NCBI RefSeq assembly: GCF_014490665.1 | Contig: NZ_CP061038.1 | Coordinates: 372,001-436,000 of the forward strand | Source: Sphingomonas alpina | GTDB taxonomy: Bacteria; Pseudomonadota; Alphaproteobacteria; Sphingomonadales; Sphingomonadaceae | Reading direction: 5' to 3' | DNA: 64,000 bases | Shown here: in pieces, positions 48,786 to 58,235 of the stretch | How positions within the stretch are numbered: position 1 is the stretch's first letter | Layout of the letters: each line of letters begins with the position of its first letter | Notes under the pieces: model-generated | Databases searched by the model: none | Told to the model about the DNA's origin: nothing | The model's input: only the letters and a program-made list of their open reading frames with translations | Position numbers and translations under genes: made by a program

Positions 48786-50684
48786 TTGAGCGCCATCGCC
48801 GGTGCCGTTTTTGCGGATGGCCGCGCGATGGAGGATGCGCTGCTGGCGCGGATCGTCGGTGCGTCGGCGCGGCGCGGCTTCGATGGCGTGACCCGCTGGC
48901 ATGGCGGCCCGGCGGGGATGATCCGCTTCGCGCATGCGACGACACCCGAAGCCGTGGGAGAAGTGCAACCGTTCGTCAGCCGGCGCTCGGACGCCGTGAT
49001 GGTGTTCGACGGCCGGATCGACAATCGCGCAGAACTGCTCGCGTTGCTCGGTCCGTCGGAGGCCCTCCCTGCCTCCGCGCCGGATGGCGAGATCGCCCTT
49101 GCACTGTTCGATCGGCTCGGCGACGATTTCGTGCAGCGGCTGGCGGGCGATTACGCGATCGCGATCTGGCAGCAGCAGCGCCGGCGCTTGCTGTTGCTGC
49201 GATCGCCATTCGGCTGGCGTCCGCTGATCTGGACATTCGACGGGCATCGCTTCGGCTTTGCGACCGAGCCGCGCGGGCTGGTCCTCGGCCTGGGAATCGA
49301 GCGGCGGCTCAACGAAGGTGCGATCGGCGAGTTTCTCGCCGCGCGCTTCGTTACGGAAACCGACACTTTCTGGCACGGCGTGCAGCGCGTGCCGCAGGGT
49401 GGCGCGCTGGCGTTCGAAGGCGGCCGGGTTCGCCAATGGGCGTGGCATGGCGGCCCATTCGAGGATCTGTCGCGGCTCTCGCTCGACGAGCATGTCGAAC
49501 GTTTCCGCACGTTGTTCGACCAGTCGCTGATCGCTGCCGCGCGCGGGTCGGGGCCGGTGACCTCGCAATTGTCCGGCGGGCTCGATTCCTCCTCGGTGGT
49601 GTGCCGCGCGGCGGAATTGCATCGCGACGGGCGGATCGATCGGCCCGTCGGCGCGATCAGCGCGCGCTTTCCCGGCGAGCCGCATGATGAGACGGTGTGG
49701 AGCCAGGCGGTCGAGACTCATGCCGGCATCACCGCGGAGGTGGTGCCGTCCCAGCCGTTCGACGGCGACACGGCGCGGCAATGGTGCGCCGATTCCTATC
49801 AATTGCCGCTGCGTCCCAACACGCTCGACACCACGGTGTCGGTATGCCGGCAGCTGCGTCAGGATGGCCGCCGCATCCTGCTGACCGGCGAAGGCGGCGA
49901 CGACTGGCTCAACGGATCGTTCGCGCACTGGCCCGATTTGCTCGCCCGCGGCCAATGGCGTGCGCTGTTTCGCCATGGCGCCGAGCAATGGCCGGGCGCC
50001 CCGGCGCATGTCATCGCGCGGCGCACGCTTTATCCCGCGCTGATGCCGTTGATCAGTGCGCGTCACCGCGAGGCATTGCTTCACCCGCATCTCGATTTCC
50101 GCCTCGATCCGCCGGACTGGATCCGCCCCGACTGGATGGCGCGTGTCGGGCTGGAGGCGCGCTGGCATGATGGCATCGCGCGGCAGGGCCTTCGCGGTTT
50201 TGCGCAGCGCTCGCGCTATGCCGTGTTCACGCATGCCCGCCGTCACATCAGCTATGAACCGGTTTTCGCCTATACCGAAAGCCAGGGGATCGAGACCCGT
50301 CATCCGTTTCATGATCTCCGGCTCGCGGGCTTCTTCATGGGCGCCTCGGGCAGCTTGTTGCGCAAGCATGATTGCCGCAAATTTCTGCTGCGCGAGGCGA
50401 TGCGCGGCACCTTGCCCGAACTGGTCCGGACGCGCACCACCAAGGCGTATTTCGTCGGTCATATCGTCGATGCGGTCGATGCCCTGTTCGAGCAGCGCGC
50501 ACCGCGCGACCTGCTCCCCGCAACGCTCGGCTGGATCGATCCCGACCGGATCGCCGCGCTGCACGCGCCGTTCAGCAAATGGCGCAGGGACGGATCGAGC
50601 GGACCGATTCCAGAGTCGCAATGGGGGCCGGTATGGTTCGCGCTGGCGATGGACATGTGGCTTGAGAATGCCTTCGGCCTGTAG
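48786..50684 (+). CDS. Asparagine-synthetase-like RiPP enzyme
   Basis: A 632-residue protein of the AsnB/lasso-cyclase family. The N-terminal Ntn-hydrolase-like domain begins MSAIAGAVFADG, so the catalytic Cys2 of true glutaminases is replaced by Ser. The synthetase domain has the ATP pyrophosphatase motif SQLSGGLDSSSVVCRAAEL and LLTGEGGDDWLNGS. Such enzymes adenylate a side-chain carboxylate and form an amide, as in lasso macrocycles. The start is a TTG at 48786; no better start gives the conserved SAIAG beginning. It is first in a plus-strand set with the radical SAM and PqqD genes. It should act on the precursor encoded at 54588-54743. Confidence 0.87.
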   Translation: MSAIAGAVFADGRAMEDALLARIVGASARRGFDGVTRWHGGPAGMIRFAHATTPEAVGEVQPFVSRRSDAVMVFDGRIDNRAELLALLGPSEALPASAPDGEIALALFDRLGDDFVQRLAGDYAIAIWQQQRRRLLLLRSPFGWRPLIWTFDGHRFGFATEPRGLVLGLGIERRLNEGAIGEFLAARFVTETDTFWHGVQRVPQGGALAFEGGRVRQWAWHGGPFEDLSRLSLDEHVERFRTLFDQSLIAAARGSGPVTSQLSGGLDSSSVVCRAAELHRDGRIDRPVGAISARFPGEPHDETVWSQAVETHAGITAEVVPSQPFDGDTARQWCADSYQLPLRPNTLDTTVSVCRQLRQDGRRILLTGEGGDDWLNGSFAHWPDLLARGQWRALFRHGAEQWPGAPAHVIARRTLYPALMPLISARHREALLHPHLDFRLDPPDWIRPDWMARVGLEARWHDGIARQGLRGFAQRSRYAVFTHARRHISYEPVFAYTESQGIETRHPFHDLRLAGFFMGASGSLLRKHDCRKFLLREAMRGTLPELVRTRTTKAYFVGHIVDAVDALFEQRAPRDLLPATLGWIDPDRIAALHAPFSKWRRDGSSGPIPESQWGPVWFALAMDMWLENAFGL

Positions 50685-50753
50685 CCCCGCTGTCCCAACG
50701 CGGCGCTGCCATTGGCCATGATAGTCTGTTAGACCCGCTTGGGGGAGGGGAAT

Positions 50754-52586
50754 ATGGTGCAACAAGCGGGCGAATTCGGGGTCGATATCTGCCTGGTCCT
50801 GCCGGCCTTTAGTTCGGCCCATTTTCCGCATCTGGGCACCGCGGTGTTGAAGAGCGCCTGCCAGGCGCGCGGACTGAGCACGCGCATCCTGTACGGCAAT
50901 CTGTTGCTGGCGGCTGCCTGTGGCCTGGAGCGGTACGATGCGGTGTGCGACGCTTCGATGCGCGCCATGCTCGGCGAGCGCCTCTATCGTGCGCATGCCT
51001 ATCCGCCGGAGACTGTCGCGCGCTTGCCGGCTTTGGATCCGCTGAGCGCCGAGCTTCAGACGGTCCATGACGAGATTTGTGATTCGGTCGCGCCGGCACT
51101 CGACACGCTGGTCGATCAGATACTTGCGTTGCGGCCCCGGATCCTCGGCGTGTCGTCGACCTTCGAACAGAACCTTGCGTGCGGCGCTGTGGCGCGACGG
51201 ATCAAGCAGATCGCGCCCGACACCTGCATCGTGATGGGCGGCGCCAATGTCGCATGGCCGATCTGCAACGGCCTGGCCCAGGCGTTTCCGTGGGTCGATC
51301 ATTTTTTTGCCGGCGAATCCGACGCCGATTTTCCCGAATTCTGCGAGCGGCTGGTGCGTGACGGCATACGTCCCGCCGATCGGGTCGTCCGCAGCGAGCC
51401 GATCCGCGATATGCGCACCGCTTTCGCACCCGATTTCACCGATTTCTTCGCCGCGCTGCGCCCGCTTCAGGCGGCGGGTGCCTTGCCCGGCTGGCTACCG
51501 CGCTTCCTGACCATGGAGACGTCGCGTGGCTGCTGGTGGGGTGCAAAGAATCATTGCACCTTTTGCGGACTGAACGGCGAAGGCATGGCGTTCCGTGACA
51601 AACCGGCAGCGCTGGTACTCGAGGAAATGGCGGCGCTCGGGGAGTGGCAGGTCGATCACATCCATTTGACCGACAATATCATGCCGCATCACTATCTGAC
51701 CGATCTGATGCCCGCGCTGGCCGAGACCGAGCCGCGCCGCAAACTCTTCTATGAAGTGAAGGCCAATCTCAGCGAAGCGCAGGTCGATGCGCTGGCGCGC
51801 GGCGGTGTGGTGGCGATCCAGCCGGGGATCGAATCGCTCTCTTCGGACTTGCTCCGGCTGATGCGCAAGGGCGTGTCGGCGCACCAGAACATTGCGCTGC
51901 TGCGCAGCTGCGCCGGGGTCGGCATCGAGGTGCAATGGGGCATCATCTACGGTTTTCCCGGCGAGACCGTGGCCAATTACGAAGAGATGATCGCGGTCAT
52001 GCCGCGCCTTGCGCATCTCGAGCCGCCCAACGCCGCGCACCAGATTCTGATCGACCGCTACAGTCCCTATTACAAGGATTCGATCGGGTTGGGCATTGGC
52101 GCGGTATCGCCGTTCTCCGGCTATCGCGCGCTCTATCCGGCGGAGGTGGCCGCGGCGGACGTCGCCTATCATTTCGACGGCAGCTATTCGACCGAGTTGC
52201 TCGACCGACCCGAACTGGTCGAGCGGATGCAGGCGGCGGTCGCGACATGGAAGCGCGCCTGGTTCGCCGCGCGACGGCCGATGCTGCAACTGGTGACGGT
52301 CGGGGCGTCGTCGGTTGTGCTCGATTCGCGGCCGATCGCGCGACAGCCGATCACGCCGCTTTCGGCGTCGCATCGCGACGCGCTGACCGAATTCGAACGG
52401 CCGCGCGCGCGTATTGGCCTCGATCCGGCGCTTGCCGCCTGTGCCGATTGGCTGGTCGAGCGCGATTTCTTGATCGAACATGAAGGCAAGCTGATGAGTA
52501 TCGTTGTGCGCCCGCGTCCGGATGTTCTGGCCAATGCCGCACCGCTGATGGGGGTCGAGACGCGCGCGCTGGAGTCCGCGTCCTGA
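50754..52586 (+). CDS. Cobalamin-binding radical SAM RiPP maturase
   Basis: About 610 residues. The N-terminal half is a B12-binding Rossmann-like domain (LGVSSTFEQNLACGAVARRI; CIVMGGANVAW). The radical SAM domain has the unusual cluster motif RGCWWGAKNHCTFCGLNGEG, with CX7CX2C spacing, followed by FRDKP. This matches the RiPP maturation radical SAM protein 1 group (TIGR03975-like), thought to be C-methyltransferases. Its likely substrate is the precursor peptide of this cluster. A strong GGGGGAGGGG precedes the ATG at 50754. Confidence 0.88.
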   Translation: MVQQAGEFGVDICLVLPAFSSAHFPHLGTAVLKSACQARGLSTRILYGNLLLAAACGLERYDAVCDASMRAMLGERLYRAHAYPPETVARLPALDPLSAELQTVHDEICDSVAPALDTLVDQILALRPRILGVSSTFEQNLACGAVARRIKQIAPDTCIVMGGANVAWPICNGLAQAFPWVDHFFAGESDADFPEFCERLVRDGIRPADRVVRSEPIRDMRTAFAPDFTDFFAALRPLQAAGALPGWLPRFLTMETSRGCWWGAKNHCTFCGLNGEGMAFRDKPAALVLEEMAALGEWQVDHIHLTDNIMPHHYLTDLMPALAETEPRRKLFYEVKANLSEAQVDALARGGVVAIQPGIESLSSDLLRLMRKGVSAHQNIALLRSCAGVGIEVQWGIIYGFPGETVANYEEMIAVMPRLAHLEPPNAAHQILIDRYSPYYKDSIGLGIGAVSPFSGYRALYPAEVAAADVAYHFDGSYSTELLDRPELVERMQAAVATWKRAWFAARRPMLQLVTVGASSVVLDSRPIARQPITPLSASHRDALTEFERPRARIGLDPALAACADWLVERDFLIEHEGKLMSIVVRPRPDVLANAAPLMGVETRALESAS

Positions 52587-52665
52587 ATCGGTTCACCCGT
52601 GCCACTGTCGCGTTGCTTGATCATGTGGCCGCGCATGGTTACCCCGATCCCCGGGGGAATTATAG

Positions 52666-52965
52666 ATGATCATTGCCACACAGATCGAAGACACTGCGGT
52701 GATCAGCCGCAAGCCGACGTTGATCGCGGCGGATGTTGCCGATGAGGCGATCCTGCTCGATGTCGATAGCGGCTATTTCTTCCAGCTCAACAAGACCGCG
52801 GCGCGAATCTGGAATCTGGTCGAAGAGCCCAGCACCTTGTCCGATCTATACGTCCAGCTGGAAAAGGTCTTTGCGGTCGATGCGGCGACTTGCCGGCGCG
52901 AGGCCGCGGAATTCGTCGTGCAGATGCGTGACCGCGGCCTGCTGGTCATCGACGAATCCGCCTAG
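52666..52965 (+). CDS. PqqD-family peptide chaperone (RiPP recognition element)
   Basis: A 99-residue PqqD-like protein: AILLDVDSGYFFQLNKTAAR followed by IWNLVEEPSTLSDLY and a helical end. These winged-helix-like proteins bind the leader of a RiPP precursor and bring it to the modifying enzymes. It is third in the plus-strand set and ends six bp from the convergent oxygenase gene. Its expected target is the WVKPEI motif of the precursor encoded at 54588-54743. GGGGGAATTATAG precedes the ATG. Confidence 0.88.
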   Translation: MIIATQIEDTAVISRKPTLIAADVADEAILLDVDSGYFFQLNKTAARIWNLVEEPSTLSDLYVQLEKVFAVDAATCRREAAEFVVQMRDRGLLVIDESA

Positions 52966-52971
52966 AATCGT

Positions 52972-53607
52972 TTACGGCTGCACTGCAGCGGTACCAGACC
53001 GCTCTATTTCGCGCGCGCGATAAACCCAGCAATTCACGGCGAAGCGCGAATCGACGAGATCGCCCGACGGGCAGTCGACGCGCAGCACCTCGTGCGGGGC
53101 CCATGATGGAAAGACCACCAGGCTGTTCTGCGCCGGTGGCACGTCGATGCCGGCGTCGCCCGGACTGGCGCCGATCCGGTGCAGTCTGAGGCATCCGCCG
53201 CTGAAACCCTGGGGCTCCTGATGGAAATAATAGACCGCACTCAGCATCCGGTCGCCGCGCGCCGGCTGATCGCGGGTGTAGGTATCGGAATGGAACAGGA
53301 AATGCGCACCGTCATTGTGTGCCGCCAGTTCGAGTTCCACTTCGCTGATCGCGAACGGCGTGACACGCAACGCAGCGATCCAATCCGGCACCGCCGCGCG
53401 GACATGGCCTTCCAGCAGGTCGTGATGCGGGCCCAGATCGCGCAGGGTCAGCGCACGCCGAACCGCTGGATCGACGATATTTCCGGCAAGCCCGGCCGGG
53501 CTGAAGCGCGACAGGTTTGCCATCGTCCAGTCGAGCAATGCGGCATGATCATGGGGTGGTAGAAAATCTGCCTGTCGCAGATATGGCGTCATCAGGCCGC
53601 CGCTCAT
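52972..53607 (-). CDS. 2-oxoglutarate/Fe(II)-dependent oxygenase
   Basis: A 211-residue double-stranded beta-helix enzyme. The iron ligands are visible in FLFHSDTYTR (HxD) and WAPHEVLRV (distal His), with a likely 2-oxoglutarate-binding Arg in DSRFAVNCWVYR. It probably hydroxylates a residue of the peptide made by this cluster. The ATG at 53607 overlaps the stop of the sulfotransferase gene (ATGA), so the two are coupled. Confidence 0.85.
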   Translation of the reverse strand: MSGGLMTPYLRQADFLPPHDHAALLDWTMANLSRFSPAGLAGNIVDPAVRRALTLRDLGPHHDLLEGHVRAAVPDWIAALRVTPFAISEVELELAAHNDGAHFLFHSDTYTRDQPARGDRMLSAVYYFHQEPQGFSGGCLRLHRIGASPGDAGIDVPPAQNSLVVFPSWAPHEVLRVDCPSGDLVDSRFAVNCWVYRAREIERSGTAAVQP

Positions 53608-54488
53608 GGGACTGCGACTGGCCGCGCCGCGCACTCACGCAGATAGCGCAGGACGAACGCTTCGCTGCGGGCGTCGGCCTGGCGCTGCATGCGGATCGCC
53701 GGCGGTTCGGCATCGCTGCCGAGTTTTGTGAACAGGCTGCCGATGGTGTGCCGATACTCGGCGACGAGTTGCTCATAGACAACATCATGCGGCGTCGCGC
53801 CGATCGCGGCGAAGAGATTGCGCCAGTGGCCGTGGCAGAAATCGGCATAGCCAATCAGCCGATCGAGCCGTTCGATGTCGAAATCGGGCCGGGTGTGCGG
53901 GGTGAGTCCGTCGATCCCGGGTGCCATTTCGGGAATTTCGCGCCATTTGCCGGTTTCGCTGGCGAAGAGCGCCGAAATCGCCTGACGCAGCCGATCGCGG
54001 CGGCGGAGATGGACGAATGTCGGCGTCGGAAAGACCGTGGCAAGCAGCGCGGCAAGGTCGCGATAGACGGCGGGCGACAACGCCTCAGGCAAAGCGCCAT
54101 CGAGGACAGCAAAGCGCTCCGGGTCGATTTCCTGCGCCAGCTCCTGAATGTCGCGCCAGAATAGTTTGACCGCCAACAGGCCGCCCGGGTCGGTGCGATT
54201 GCCATGCACTGCGCTGATGTACCGCTCGATATCGGGCGCCGCCCAGCGAGCTGCCAGGCTGGGTCGAAATCCGGCATGGAAATATTCGAGCGGACAGCCC
54301 AACCCGCCGGCGAAATACAGCGCTTCGCCAAGCAAGGTACTGCCCGATCTCGGATGTGTGCAGATCAGGATCGTGCTGCGCGGCAGACCGTGCCAGGGCG
54401 GATAATCATGATTCGCGGTCGCGAGATCGTAAGGAGGCCGCGACGTCGCCGAATCAGATGGGGCCATCAAATCGGATGGAAATGTCAC
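53604..54488 (-). CDS. Stf0-like sulfotransferase
   Basis: A 294-residue cytoplasmic PAPS-dependent sulfotransferase. The 5'-phosphosulfate loop is ICTHPRSGSTLLGEALYFAG, followed by the Stf0-like CPLEYFHAG and the 3'-phosphate region FVHLRRRDRLRQAISALFAS. Characterised Stf0 enzymes act on trehalose, but the cluster suggests a peptide hydroxyl here; Tyr41 or a Ser/Thr of the precursor are candidates (inference). It is coupled to the downstream oxygenase gene. Confidence 0.85.
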   Translation of the reverse strand: MTFPSDLMAPSDSATSRPPYDLATANHDYPPWHGLPRSTILICTHPRSGSTLLGEALYFAGGLGCPLEYFHAGFRPSLAARWAAPDIERYISAVHGNRTDPGGLLAVKLFWRDIQELAQEIDPERFAVLDGALPEALSPAVYRDLAALLATVFPTPTFVHLRRRDRLRQAISALFASETGKWREIPEMAPGIDGLTPHTRPDFDIERLDRLIGYADFCHGHWRNLFAAIGATPHDVVYEQLVAEYRHTIGSLFTKLGSDAEPPAIRMQRQADARSEAFVLRYLRECAARPVAVP

Positions 54489-54543
54489 GTGTCGCCAAGG
54501 CTTGTCGGCGCTGATGCAATCGGCGCGCAGTTCTGGGCAGGCC

Positions 54544-54568
54544 CCGGCCCACCCAGAAAATGGGCCGG
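54544..54568 (-). terminator. Hairpin between precursor and sulfotransferase genes
   Basis: CCGGCCCA (54544-54551) pairs perfectly with TGGGCCGG (54561-54568) around a 9-nt loop, 20 bases after the precursor stop codon on the transcribed minus strand. No strong U-tract. Such stems often protect the precursor mRNA or reduce read-through to enzyme genes. Confidence 0.55.
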
Positions 54569-54587
54569 ATACCCCATCGCCAGGCGA

Positions 54588-54743
54588 TCAGGTCAGGTTG
54601 CTGATGCCGTCCGTCGGGCGATAGGAAATACCTTCCGCCGCCTTGACCGGCTCGAACGACACGATCTCAGGCTTGACCCAGGTTTCGCGAGTGGCGGAAT
54701 CGGCGGTGTTTTCACCCGCATTCACGTGCTTGTTCGTATCCAT
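54588..54743 (-). CDS. RiPP precursor peptide
   Basis: A 51-codon gene between the PRMT-like and sulfotransferase genes. The leader runs MDTNKHVNAGENTADSATRE, then TWVKPEIVSFEPVK, then AAEGISYRPTDGISNLT. WVKPEI resembles the lasso-type YxxPxL motif bound by PqqD-like proteins. The C-terminal part has one Tyr, one Arg, one Pro, a Glu/Asp pair, a near-repeat (EGIS, DGIS) and a terminal Thr. Gly38 to Asp45 would span an 8-residue lasso-type ring, but the Thr usual two residues before a lasso core is Ala here. AAGGGA lies seven bases before the ATG. The core boundary and product are unknown. Confidence 0.82.
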   Translation of the reverse strand: MDTNKHVNAGENTADSATRETWVKPEIVSFEPVKAAEGISYRPTDGISNLT

Positions 54744-54803
54744 CGACCGTTCCCTTGCAATCGTCTGGTTTAGACTAGCCTGAACGACTCATGAGCGCAA
54801 CGA

Positions 54804-55853
54804 TTAGTCGCGCCAGACTCGAATGCGATCTGTTTCATGCCGGGCTGCAACGTTGATGATTTGCCCCGCAACGGTTTCGACGGGGCGTTCGAACGGCCAG
54901 AAGATCGCGCCCCAACATGACGGTGTGCCGGTTGCCGGGCGATTTTCGTATCGGCCCTGATCGTCCATCTCGAGCGCGATCCATTGCACGATGCCGTTGA
55001 CGACGCCACCGGTCGAGCCGAGCGGGACCGAGCCGCGTCGATCCGGCCATGGCCCGCCCGAGGCGAAATCGAAGTCGAACAGATCGGCCGGCTCGCTGCG
55101 CAACGCCAGATGCTCGCTGGCGACGGGGACTTCGCGGTACGGGCGAGCGAGGCGATTGAACGGCGTCAGGTCGAATCCGCTCGCCGTATCGACACGGCCG
55201 CTGCGCGACCCGCTATCCTCGGCCAGCGCGATGCGTATCCGGCCCCGCGCGGGAATGACGGCAGCACCGGGCCGGAGCAGTCGCGGCACGGCATCTTCAT
55301 GCGCCGGCAACACGCCTTCGCTGAGCAGGTCATTGCTGACGATCTCCGACACCAATATGTCGGCCGGTCCGTCAAGATCGACGAGGTCGAGCGTGGTCGA
55401 ATGCTTGTTGATGACCCGAATGCGATCGGAAAGCCCGTTCGCGGCGATCACGTCGCGTGCCGCAGCCGCCACCGCTGCATCGGCCTCGCAGGTCACGACA
55501 TGGGCGCCGGCGCGCGCCGCCATCATGGCCAGCAACCCCGTGCCGGTGCCGATTTCGAGCACCTTGCATCCCGGCACGATCGCGCGGCGCAGCGCGGCTT
55601 CATAGGCATCGTTGCGTGGCCGGTCGCGCACGATAACGAAATGCCAGCGCGGCACGCCGTCGCTGAGCAGGTCGGCAGCGAGCGCGCGGACTTCGCCGTC
55701 ATCCGGCGCGAGCGTCAAGGCCCTGGTTGCGAGGTCGAGCGCGCGCGCCGTCTCGTCGATGCCGCGAAATTGCCGTGCAAGCGCAATCATCGCATCGGGT
55801 TTCCCCTCGACCAGGGGCAATAAGGTGAGAAGATCCTGGGCTCGATTCCGCAT
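54804..55853 (-). CDS. PRMT-like class I methyltransferase
   Basis: About 349 residues: an N-terminal TPR-like helical region (ARALDLATRALTLAPDDGEV), then a SAM-binding domain with motif I VLEIGTGTGLLAMMAARAG and the acidic residue in VVTCEAD. SEIVSNDLLSEGVLPAHED resembles the double-Glu loop of protein arginine methyltransferases, particularly PRMT7. The single Arg in the precursor core (Arg42) is a possible target (inference). The start is uncertain: ATG 55853 or 55913; neither has a clear ribosome-binding site. It lies 60 bp upstream of the precursor gene. Confidence 0.8.
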   Translation of the reverse strand: MRNRAQDLLTLLPLVEGKPDAMIALARQFRGIDETARALDLATRALTLAPDDGEVRALAADLLSDGVPRWHFVIVRDRPRNDAYEAALRRAIVPGCKVLEIGTGTGLLAMMAARAGAHVVTCEADAAVAAAARDVIAANGLSDRIRVINKHSTTLDLVDLDGPADILVSEIVSNDLLSEGVLPAHEDAVPRLLRPGAAVIPARGRIRIALAEDSGSRSGRVDTASGFDLTPFNRLARPYREVPVASEHLALRSEPADLFDFDFASGGPWPDRRGSVPLGSTGGVVNGIVQWIALEMDDQGRYENRPATGTPSCWGAIFWPFERPVETVAGQIINVAARHETDRIRVWRD

Positions 55854-55925
55854 GGTGCTGTGCGTACGCAAGCTTTTGCCGCGCGACAATAACCCCGCGC
55901 GTCGCCGGGCCATGCCTGACGGCGA

Positions 55926-56876
55926 TCAGGCGCCGGTGTGATCCTGACGCTGCGGGGCGATCAGACCGCTGATCGTCGCTGCGACCGTCGACAACGCCGC
56001 GTAGGATGCCGGATAGATCAGCCGCCAGACCGGCGTCGAGCGCATGATCGGTGCGAGTGTTCCGAGCGCGGCGACGCGTTCCGCGGCGCTCGATCCATGG
56101 GGATTGAAGCGGATGATCTGCGGCACGATTTCGGCCACGCCTTGCGCCAGGGAGAGCCGCTCGAGGCGCGGTGACGTGCAGTCGGCTGTGCGATCGAGAA
56201 AGACAAATGCCTGCAGCAACGCAGGGTCCCCGCTGCCGCGATACGGATCATAGCGCAATTTGCCGTCATAGCCCGGCATTTCGGTGCAATGTTCGGGGGC
56301 AAGGCCGAGACCGTCGCGTGATGGCGGCCACAAGCAGACGCCGGTCGCTGCTGGTGTGAGCATCGGTGCGCCGTCGCCCCGCAGGATCGAAATATCGTCA
56401 CTGAGTATCTCCCAGCCGAGGAAGTGCGCCAGCGCGGCGGACAGGGTCGATTTGCCCGCGCCTGACCGGCCGAGCAGCATCAGCGCGCCGCCACGCCCGG
56501 CGAGCGCGGCCGAATGGATCGCGGTCGCGCCGAACAGGGTCGTCACGCGCGGCAATATGCGGCGGACCAACACGTCGGTCAGCGCCTGGCTCGGGGGCAG
56601 ATGATCGCAAAAGACCTGAATGCTGGTACCGTCGCGGGCGATCAGGAAACTGCCGTCGAACGCCGAGCGCATCAGCCACTGCCCGCGATACTCGCCGAGC
56701 TTGAGGCCATAACGTCCCGGCCAGGCAAAATGTTCGTGGTCGGGCTCGGGCGCCGTGCCGGTCCCGCTGGTCACCATGATATCCGGGTGCGCTCCGGTCG
56801 AACGCCCTTCGCGCAAGCCGTCAAAGCGCAACGACGAGCGAATGGTAAGGCCGCCAAAAAGATAATCGAACGTCAC
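55926..56876 (-). CDS. HPr-kinase-like RiPP-cluster kinase
   Basis: About 316 residues. The N-terminal beta-rich part begins VTFDYLFGGLTIRSSLRFDG. The kinase core has a P-loop LLGRSGAGKSTLSAALAHFL and the DD motif EILSDDISILRGDG, as in HPr kinases. Relatives in lasso clusters phosphorylate the C-terminal Ser of the precursor (paeninodin is the known case); here the precursor ends in Thr. The start is uncertain: GTG 56876 gives a family-like N-terminus, whereas ATG 56963 would add 29 residues. It leads the minus-strand operon. Confidence 0.82.
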   Translation of the reverse strand: MTFDYLFGGLTIRSSLRFDGLREGRSTGAHPDIMVTSGTGTAPEPDHEHFAWPGRYGLKLGEYRGQWLMRSAFDGSFLIARDGTSIQVFCDHLPPSQALTDVLVRRILPRVTTLFGATAIHSAALAGRGGALMLLGRSGAGKSTLSAALAHFLGWEILSDDISILRGDGAPMLTPAATGVCLWPPSRDGLGLAPEHCTEMPGYDGKLRYDPYRGSGDPALLQAFVFLDRTADCTSPRLERLSLAQGVAEIVPQIIRFNPHGSSAAERVAALGTLAPIMRSTPVWRLIYPASYAALSTVAATISGLIAPQRQDHTGA

Positions 56877-57008
56877 GCGGGCGCCATAGCGGACGCGTCG
56901 GAGGACGTCACCTGCAAGCTCTCCTGCTATCGCACAGGTTGTGCATCGCGCCTCGACGGGCATAAGGAACCCGGGCTTTGGGGCGAGCGAACAGGGGGCG
57001 CGCAAACA

Positions 57009-58235
57009 GTGGACATCGACCAGCCGCCCGGGGCGGCCCGCATCGACGGTCTGAACGCGCGTGCATTCTCGCCGGAATTGCGGTTCATTCTGCTTGCTGT
57101 CCGGACGCTGGATGGTCCGGATGATCCAAAGCTGCTGCGAACCGCCGCAGGTGCCGGTCTGGACTGGGATATCGTGGTCCAGGGGCTGGCCCGGCACGGC
57201 TTGTTATGGCTCACCGCGCCCCTGCTCGCCGCCGGGGACGTGGTTCCCGCACCCGCAGCGGCAGCGCTGCGCCGGATCAACGCCGCCAACGTCGTTGCCA
57301 CGCTGCAGCGGATCGAGGAGGCGGTGCGCGTCGCGCGTGCGTTCGAACAGGCGGGCGTTCGCTTCGTGATGATCAAGGGCGTGCCCCTGTCGGTCCAACT
57401 CTATCGCGACCCCGCGCGTCGTGCCGGCCGCGACCTGGATTTCGTGATCGAGCGCGGCAAGGCGGCTCAGGTCGATGCGATCCTGACCGGGCTCGGCTAT
57501 TTCCGCCCCGACAATGGCGTGCCGGATGCGGCGGGAACGGCACCGATCGTCAAGGAAATCGGCTATTTGCACAGCCGGAGCCGAATTCTGGTCGAGGTCC
57601 ACGACCGGTTGACCGACAATGCCGAATTGCTGTCATGGGATTGCGAAACGCTGTGGGCGGATCGGGAAACCGTGTCCGTCGGATCCTATTCGATGCCCAC
57701 CATGGCACGGCATCGCCTGCCGGTTTATCTGTGCCTCCACGGCGCAAAACATGGCTGGGCACGGCTGATGTGGCTGCACGATCTTGCCGCCCTGATCGAT
57801 ACGCCGGAGGCGGCCGAGCGCGCACTGGCCGATGCTGCGGCGCTGGGGCTGGACGGCGCGATGCTGCACGGTTTTGCGCGGCTGCATGCCTGGTTCGGGC
57901 ATTCGATCCCGCCAGCGATTCTTGCGCGTGCCCATGCCAGCCGGCAGGTGCGGTTGCTCGACCGTCTCGCGGCTCGCTTCCACCGCGATGCCGGCTGGCA
58001 CGAACAGCCCGGACGGCATTCCTGGCGGCGCTTCTGGCAGGGGTCGGTGCTGTCGCGCAGCATTGGTTATGCGATCAAGCCCGACCGGCGCTATTGGCGG
58101 CGGCAACTCGCGCTTGAGCTCTTTTCGCCGGCGGATCGGCAACTCATCACGCTGCCAGCGGGACTGACCTGGCTCTATCCGGTGTTGCGACCGGTCGGCT
58201 GGCTGGCACGGCGGTGGAAATTGCGCCGGGGCTGA
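57009..58235 (+). CDS. Nucleotidyltransferase-family protein (NTP_transf_5)
   Basis: A 408-residue protein. The motif FVMIKGVPLSVQLYRD followed by RRAGRDLDFVIERGKAAQV fits the nucleotidyltransferase fold with its metal-binding DLD. The later segments VEVHDRLTDNAELLSWDCE and YLCLHGAKHGWARLMWLHDL are family-typical. Members occur in lasso clusters with HPr-kinase-like proteins; one such cluster (pseudomycoidin) is reported to modify a phosphorylated peptide. The start is a GTG at 57009. It is divergent from the kinase gene. Confidence 0.83.
   Translation: MDIDQPPGAARIDGLNARAFSPELRFILLAVRTLDGPDDPKLLRTAAGAGLDWDIVVQGLARHGLLWLTAPLLAAGDVVPAPAAAALRRINAANVVATLQRIEEAVRVARAFEQAGVRFVMIKGVPLSVQLYRDPARRAGRDLDFVIERGKAAQVDAILTGLGYFRPDNGVPDAAGTAPIVKEIGYLHSRSRILVEVHDRLTDNAELLSWDCETLWADRETVSVGSYSMPTMARHRLPVYLCLHGAKHGWARLMWLHDLAALIDTPEAAERALADAAALGLDGAMLHGFARLHAWFGHSIPPAILARAHASRQVRLLDRLAARFHRDAGWHEQPGRHSWRRFWQGSVLSRSIGYAIKPDRRYWRRQLALELFSPADRQLITLPAGLTWLYPVLRPVGWLARRWKLRRG

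Follow-up and report, generated by a model that had tools for sequence, protein, structure and literature searches.

The window, by which we mean the whole stretch of 64,000 nucleotides analysed here (contig NZ_CP061038.1 of Sphingomonas alpina, positions 372,001 to 436,000), carries at 48786..58235 a block of nine genes that looks like a cluster for a ribosomally synthesized and post-translationally modified peptide (RiPP). The genome is a single contig of 5,197,460 bases. Open reading frames (ORFs) and domain profile searches place all nine genes in the block, in agreement with an earlier note on this DNA, which had described eight enzyme or binding-protein genes around one 51-codon precursor gene. 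The features are as follows, the starts of the HPr-kinase-like gene (56963) and of the NTP_transf_5 gene (57009) being our own reading.

48786..50684, plus strand: AsnB-like protein, predicted lasso-type macrolactam cyclase (C protein); TTG start, 632 amino acids; Asn_synthase and GATase_7 matches
50754..52586, plus strand: B12 radical S-adenosylmethionine (SAM) C-methyltransferase; TIGR03975, with CxxxxxxxCxxC present
52666..52965, plus strand: leader-binding protein of the PqqD/RiPP recognition element (RRE) kind, B1 type; PF05402 above cut-off
52972..53634, minus strand: 2-oxoglutarate (2OG)-Fe(II) oxygenase, predicted Pro6 hydroxylase; PF13640; Pro6 in 11/11 loci with the oxygenase
53604..54488, minus strand: Stf0-type sulfotransferase; PF09037; PDB 1tex
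54588..54743, minus strand: precursor gene, 51 codons; 54 matching protein clusters, alignments and translation
54633..54743, minus strand: predicted leader, residues 1-37, with the motif WVKPEI; W-x2-P-x-[ILV] motif and assigned core start
54591..54632, minus strand: predicted core GISYRPTDGISNLT, ring G1-D8, six-residue tail; first-acid position under the assigned start
54804..55853, minus strand: methyltransferase resembling protein arginine methyltransferase (PRMT) 7, predicted Arg5 methylation; PDB PRMT7 match, double-E loop and Arg covariation
55926..56963, minus strand: HPr-kinase-like protein (HprK), predicted terminal-Thr phosphorylation; weak HprK_rel_A match, H, GKS and SDD patterns, analogy with PadeK/SyanK
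57009..58235, plus strand: NTP_transf_5 protein, PsmN-like; PF14907; role by analogy with pseudomycoidin

The AsnB, radical SAM and PqqD genes form a plus-strand set and the kinase, methyltransferase, precursor, Stf0 and oxygenase genes a minus-strand set, as described in the earlier note, with the refinement that NTP_transf_5 is a separate plus-strand gene. Across 56963-57009 the NTP_transf_5 and kinase genes are divergent in the window and in genome G631, and lie on the same strand in loci L045-L048 and L058.

The precursor gene, with AGGGAA shortly 5' of its ATG, has matches at E<=0.001 in 54 protein clusters; of these, P0001 appears to be the window's own. An alignment of 55 precursors has 16 invariant columns, split evenly between the predicted core and the sixteen residues that precede it, eight in each; since the search for relatives requires shared exact words, it favours conserved cores. 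The leader motif W-x2-P-x-[ILV] was found in all 28 ORFs of the first set listed, and core position 1 was assigned by us at a constant distance of 16 residues after its W. Gene presence and cores were entered by hand for 24 loci; this table omits L056 and L168 (copies of L049 and L058), the second precursors of L048 and L051, three loci with no precursor found (L244, L189, L227) and L178 (weak match), and L047 and L055 stop at contig ends. Under the assigned core start, 22 of the 24 loci have their first acid at position 8 and the other two at 9; positions 1-7 hold no acid, and three loci have one at position 12. Residue 1 is G in 18 loci, A in four, S in one and N in one, meaning that every one of the 24 precursors has a residue 1 able to form a ring with Asp/Glu at positions 7-9, as looked for in a lasso cluster. 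The acid layout is retained in divergent cores such as GSGSLTGEALNNAS, SAIPGAVNDGGGANQS, AATLNPGDGLSSNS, GIGGGVSDGSGGNVS, ANLGGTALDSGKANLS and GLGGAGIDFASEQS, and each of the 24 cores has a Ser/Thr as residue 14 or at its end.

The AsnB-like protein matches Asn_synthase (110.8 bits, cut-off 21) together with GATase_7 and belongs to a clade of 24 cyclases with support of 100/100, outside which fall the two MCG-bearing synthases of the same genome. Its SGGLDSS loop is retained and no Cys follows the start residue. The same holds for the family, where 23 of the 24 scanned copies have SGG[LYF]DS and all 24 N-termini begin M/L/V-S/G, not M-C, such that the Cys of the glutamine-using synthases is absent. 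An AsnB-like cyclase that lacks the glutaminase Cys and keeps the ATP loop, as expected in a lasso cluster, is thus present. A PqqD-like leader-binding B1 protein is also found, by PF05402 (64 bits, cut-off 23.4), the match to lasso_PqqD_Bac being below its cut-off (54.9 bits against 80). In 15 of the 24 loci a PqqD domain lies directly upstream of AsnB, and 12 of these carry another PqqD as well; the upstream copy is missing in the window, in G631 and in seven others.

The genes travel together. Among 295 genomes of the genus, the precursor family occurs in 15, and the same 15 have the AsnB clade at E<=1e-80, with no more than four AsnB candidates scored in each genome. Named records with the cluster are Sphingomonas caeni LB-2 and Sphingomonas sp. 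AR_OL41. Both this co-occurrence and the conservation of the precursor had been named in the earlier note as points on which its cluster would stand or fall, and both bear it out. The closest relative, G631, retains the whole block at 80-96% protein identity, while L045, L046, L047, L048 and L058 have the order NTP5-HprK-MT-precursor-Stf0-2OG (MT, methyltransferase) facing PqqD-AsnB, with NTP5 on another strand and the radical SAM gene at another place than in the window. An order-wide search of 346 genomes gave seven genomes outside the genus at E<=0.01, of which G172 alone is convincing and six are weak. No exporter family recurs in at least three of the 24 loci around the cluster when flanking ORFs of at least 100 codons are compared; one ATP-binding cassette (ABC)-like group of three loci sits at the edges of other loci, and no exporter is shared with the window cluster. 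The earlier note had taken the missing exporter as a sign against a lasso cluster. Passages of PMC11006600 already describe lasso clusters without an exporter.

Near the window cluster we found no leader peptidase B2. As an in-cluster B2 was a further mark looked for in a lasso cluster, we do not count this one as canonical. The genome has one B2 (PF13471), at C1:2428239-2428709, 2.0 Mb from the cluster, and it shares that genome with five Cys-less AsnB-type enzymes. The cyclase adjacent to this B2, like that of the window, scores far under the NCBIfam lasso cyclase cut-off, and by eye the ORFs of the B2 locus include some resembling a TonB receptor and a sulfotransferase. The counterpart of this B2 locus in G631 has no AsnB. 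Five relatives, L052, L057, L171, L173 and L177, have the B2 within the cluster, and the cores of three of them, L177 (GISYRPSDGLSNLTA), L052 (GISYRIGDGISNLT) and L057 (GISYTPTDGISNLTP), are nearly that of the window. The in-cluster cases include G172, of another genus (core GISYRPSDGLSNLTA), and L057, a contig of a metagenome-assembled genome (MAG) of Vicinamibacteria. The L177 B2 scores above the cut-off of NCBIfam lasso_biosyn_B2 (72.8 bits against 33), and the L057 call rests on a profile that we built ourselves. The Cys and His patterns are retained in 17/17 B2s scanned.

For 22 AsnB-clade loci of the genus, a B2 lies within the fetched stretch in three (G155 C6, G622 and G647 C1:431563); the other 19 have no B2 in the fetched stretch and no PF13471 match nearby, several of these stretches, including those of G554 and G482, stopping at contig ends. 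Stand-alone B2s occur in G482, G434, G554, G155, G511, G593, G446 and G583 (7-14 kb fetched, G482 and G554 at contig ends), and most genomes with B2-less loci hold a related B2 elsewhere. With at most twelve B2 candidates scored per genome, B2a matches of at least 130 bits are present in 13/15 cluster genomes against 17/280 others (Fisher p 7e-13), or 11/13 without the two in-cluster cases (p 5e-11). In the B2 tree, the stand-alone B2s, the B2 of the window's genome, those of L052, L171 and L173 and those of the half-clusters L189 and L227 form a group of 26 rows (89/85; 87/85 for the 25 rows without L052), which also includes B2s from some genomes without the cluster. Separate from it (97/93) are 17 other B2s, mostly from ordinary B2-AsnB pairs. 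The cyclase tree has a main group of B2-less loci, outside which the B2-bearing L052, L057 and paired L171/L173 diverge; the B2-less L174-L176 stand beside L171/L173, and the B2-bearing L177 is nested in the main group. The B2 therefore left or entered the locus more than once. The separation from lasso loci that the earlier note drew from the missing B2 is not supported, given that relatives with nearly identical cores have the gene in the cluster, that the acid stands at 8 or 9 throughout and that most of the genomes with B2-less loci encode a related B2 elsewhere.

Two of the tailoring enzymes covary with core residues. The methyltransferase matches a generic profile, its nearest solved structures being PRMT7 chains (E 2.8e-35). 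In the 24 loci it is found together with a core Arg in 11, alone in one (L057) and never missing where Arg is present, with neither in 12. Eleven of the 12 family copies, including that of the window, have an intact double-E loop, a feature of protein arginine methyltransferases; with the homology, this gives what was sought in a PRMT. In L057 a Gly replaces the second glutamate (SEIISNDVVSGG in place of SEIVSNDLLSEG), such that all 11 intact-loop enzymes face an Arg and the altered one does not. The oxygenase (2OG-FeII_Oxy_3, 60.9 bits, cut-off 27) gave three weak PDB matches, one of them named prolyl 4-hydroxylase. It occurs with Pro6 in 11 loci and never without it, ten loci having neither; an ORF at L052:14083-14808, 2OG-like by eye, matches no family profile and was scored absent, and as L052 has no Pro6, counting it would make one exception. 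Both covariations provide testable enzyme-residue assignments.

The remaining enzymes are less tightly linked to single residues. The radical SAM protein is a full-length match to TIGR03975 (526.9 bits, cut-off 281.9). A link to one core residue was sought and dropped, Pro6 being present in 8/8 loci with the gene and in 6/16 without. The gene is a remnant in L046, one of its two copies is split in L048 and several loci have none that we found; L048 and L170, where one of two copies and the sole copy, respectively, are in two pieces, were scored positive. In L046, L048 and L170 these remnants or two-piece copies lie beside the precursor and cyclase genes. The sulfotransferase matches the Stf0 sulphotransferase profile (102.3 bits, cut-off 22) and PDB 1tex (E 2e-11) with RSGSTLL aligned, R[ST]GST being retained in 19 of 20 family copies scanned. 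The NTP_transf_5 protein matches PF14907 (146.3 bits, cut-off 31.2). The kinase matches HprK_rel_A weakly (38 bits, cut-off 200) and is the weakest assignment by sequence.

Judged by precursor layout, cyclase, B1 protein and relatives, the cluster fits a variant lasso-class system best. We consider it probable that the AsnB-like enzyme closes the predicted core GISYRPTDGISNLT as a G1-D8 macrolactam after a distant B2 has cut the leader. The PqqD protein would bind the W-x2-P-x-I motif of the leader, and a B2-type peptidase from a distant locus would likely remove the leader in trans, followed by the predicted ring closure. The PRMT-like enzyme would methylate Arg5 and the 2OG enzyme hydroxylate Pro6. 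The HPr-kinase-like protein may phosphorylate Thr14, with NTP_transf_5 extending the phosphate, as for paeninodin and pseudomycoidin, while Stf0 would sulfate this extended tail group or some hydroxyl, in general not that of a tyrosine, and the B12 radical SAM enzyme may add a C-methyl group to some carbon. A wider form of the proposal, in which a stand-alone B2 serves several B2-less clusters of one cell and the product is a lasso with methylarginine, hydroxyproline, a radical C-methyl group and a sulfated phospho-sugar tail, is put forward only tentatively and is the less probable part. A RiPP class other than lasso was considered and is lowered by the in-cluster B2 of the relatives and by the core layout.

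A number of observations weigh against the proposal, some of which lend weight to alternatives. Classical lasso leaders have Thr at position -2, whereas of the 26 family precursors 21 have Ala there and five have Thr. The core start is our own assignment, and many precursors run one residue (P, A, V or others) past the terminal Thr. The match of the cyclase to the lasso model NF033535 is partial and, at 252.8 bits, far below the cut-off of 525, and the core tail has six residues without a bulky plug, making threading doubtful. These last two points would suit an AsnB-like enzyme that gives a branched cyclic, unthreaded macrolactam or another amide, that is, lasso-like biosynthesis without a lasso. 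We regard this as rather unlikely, in view of the first acid at 8 or 9 and the mostly small residue 1 across divergent cores and of PqqD, kinase and NTP_transf-type genes like those of the known lasso clusters described in the passages cited below. With respect to the leader, the B2 locus of the window's genome has its own AsnB, plus PqqD and an HPr-kinase-like gene; in G502 and G540 the B2a matches are weak (about 40 bits), although other B2s are present; G422, G662 and G467 keep a stand-alone B2 without the cluster; and the L057 and L177 B2s fall outside the 26-row group, the long branches, L177 included, being unsurely placed. A lasso-class macrolactam formed by the AsnB-like enzyme after an unrelated protease, instead of the distant B2, has cut the leader would account for the G502/G540 and G422/G662/G467 cases and for the five Cys-less AsnB-type enzymes facing one B2. 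It is nevertheless improbable, considering the five loci with in-cluster B2, the enrichment of B2a among cluster genomes and the grouping of the stand-alone B2s with those of L171/L173 and L052, if not with those of L057 and L177.

The modification assignments meet counter-evidence as well. The covariation and B2a counts ignore shared ancestry, and the loci are few. Pro6 occurs in three loci without the oxygenase, and the H, GKS and SDD motifs of the window kinase, scanned as plain patterns, are found all together in 9/23 copies. The methyltransferase tracks Tyr4 too, 12 to 12, and therefore the counts alone leave Tyr in play; the PRMT7 homology of the protein favours Arg as the methylation site. 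Tyr4 is also the residue on which Stf0 would act if the product of the window's subfamily were a tyrosine-sulfated peptide, an option that we hold to be doubtful. It is invariant in the 55 aligned close relatives, and locus L049, with Phe4, has no Stf0; on the other hand, L049 also lacks the methyltransferase, HprK and NTP_transf_5, and its loss of Stf0 is therefore not specific. Moreover, Stf0 is present in 20 of 24 loci, eight of which have no Tyr in the core, and the only hydroxyl common to all cores is that of Ser/Thr at or beside the end, the site of the HPr-kinase homologs and PsmN in known lasso systems. The eight Tyr-less loci weaken Tyr4 as a general acceptor and, together with the universal terminal Ser/Thr, point to the tail group, which we consider the likelier general site of sulfate, Tyr4 being a live rival in the window's subfamily.

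Related loci lie elsewhere in the same genome. A second, paralogous B2-less cluster (L175, C1:785200-805190) has an AsnB 50% identical, PqqD, an HPr-kinase-like gene and the precursor core GLGGAGIDFASEQS. Further Cys-less AsnB-type genes are at L254 7450-9558 (C1:596000-613000) and L255 7206-9402 (C1:1157500-1174500), adjoined by short W-x2-P-x-V ORFs with the first acid at 9 by the same spacing; no B2 was found at L254 or L255. At other loci, a secreted-looking ORF upstream of AsnB is common to L053, L055, L169 and L172, the AAT/NTS core group. In G583 and G474 the sets are split (L189, L227, L050, L054, L244), with NTP5-B2-HprK and PqqD on one contig and precursor-Stf0 on another; PqqD-AsnB accompanies precursor-Stf0 in G583, and G474 has a further AsnB-PqqD pair on a third contig. 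L235, L237, L238 and L239 combine a B2a-type B2 with genes for PqqD and an HPr-kinase-like protein, an AsnB on the opposite strand and Asn-rich precursor-like ORFs such as NNNSNNSDVTSTGIQFGNS, with the first acid at 8 in three and at 7 in one. Motif scans of the B2-bearing locus L136 found no precursor.

Among known systems, sphingocin of Sphingomonas BPH, made from a three-gene operon that includes B2, resembles the window cluster in its AsnB-like cyclase, in a core with G1 and an acid at 8 (predicted for the window) and in having no ABC exporter gene, according to passages of PMC11006600. The window cluster differs in having no B2 and in adding PqqD, Stf0, PRMT-like, 2OG, HPr-kinase-like, NTP_transf_5 and B12 radical SAM genes. 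In known lasso systems, according to passages of PMC8498205 and PMC9266682, a core-terminal Ser/Thr is the site of action of PsmN and of HPr-kinase homologs. PMC9266682 covers the kinases PadeK and SyanK and gives His-Lys-Asp-Asp residues for the HPr-kinase homolog. Paeninodin, SyanA of Sphingobium yanoikuyae and pseudomycoidin share with the window an HPr-kinase homolog, a nucleotidyltransferase-type gene and a Ser/Thr at the core end; their machinery includes B2, unlike the window cluster, and these passages do not mention for them the PRMT-like, oxygenase and radical SAM genes present here. A putative sulfotransferase gene is noted in some firmicute lasso clusters in passages of PMC8498205. 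Citrulassin, a lasso peptide, also has a modifying enzyme, a deiminase, encoded outside the lasso cluster; there the distant gene is a tailoring enzyme, whereas here it is the predicted leader peptidase. The relatives of the window's radical SAM protein in TIGR03975, among the 80 loci listed, comprise 11 at 46-62% identity and 69 at 31-39%. At the level of titles and abstract openings, with few subscription papers covered, the literature searched describes no cluster of the lasso class that combines Stf0 with PRMT-like and B12 radical SAM genes, none with its B2 elsewhere, and names no lasso-class role for TIGR03975 enzymes. The earlier note is supported where it saw a RiPP cluster with unusual tailoring enzymes, of which this literature gave no description, but not in the distance from lasso systems that it read into the missing B2.

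The invariant columns of the precursor would fit a fixed target or signal better than a fast-changing weapon, bearing in mind the preference of the search for conserved cores. Lasso genome mining commonly seeks B2 beside the cyclase. If one distant B2 does serve several clusters, whole families would have been overlooked or misfiled, and other B2-less AsnB-type loci would become candidates.

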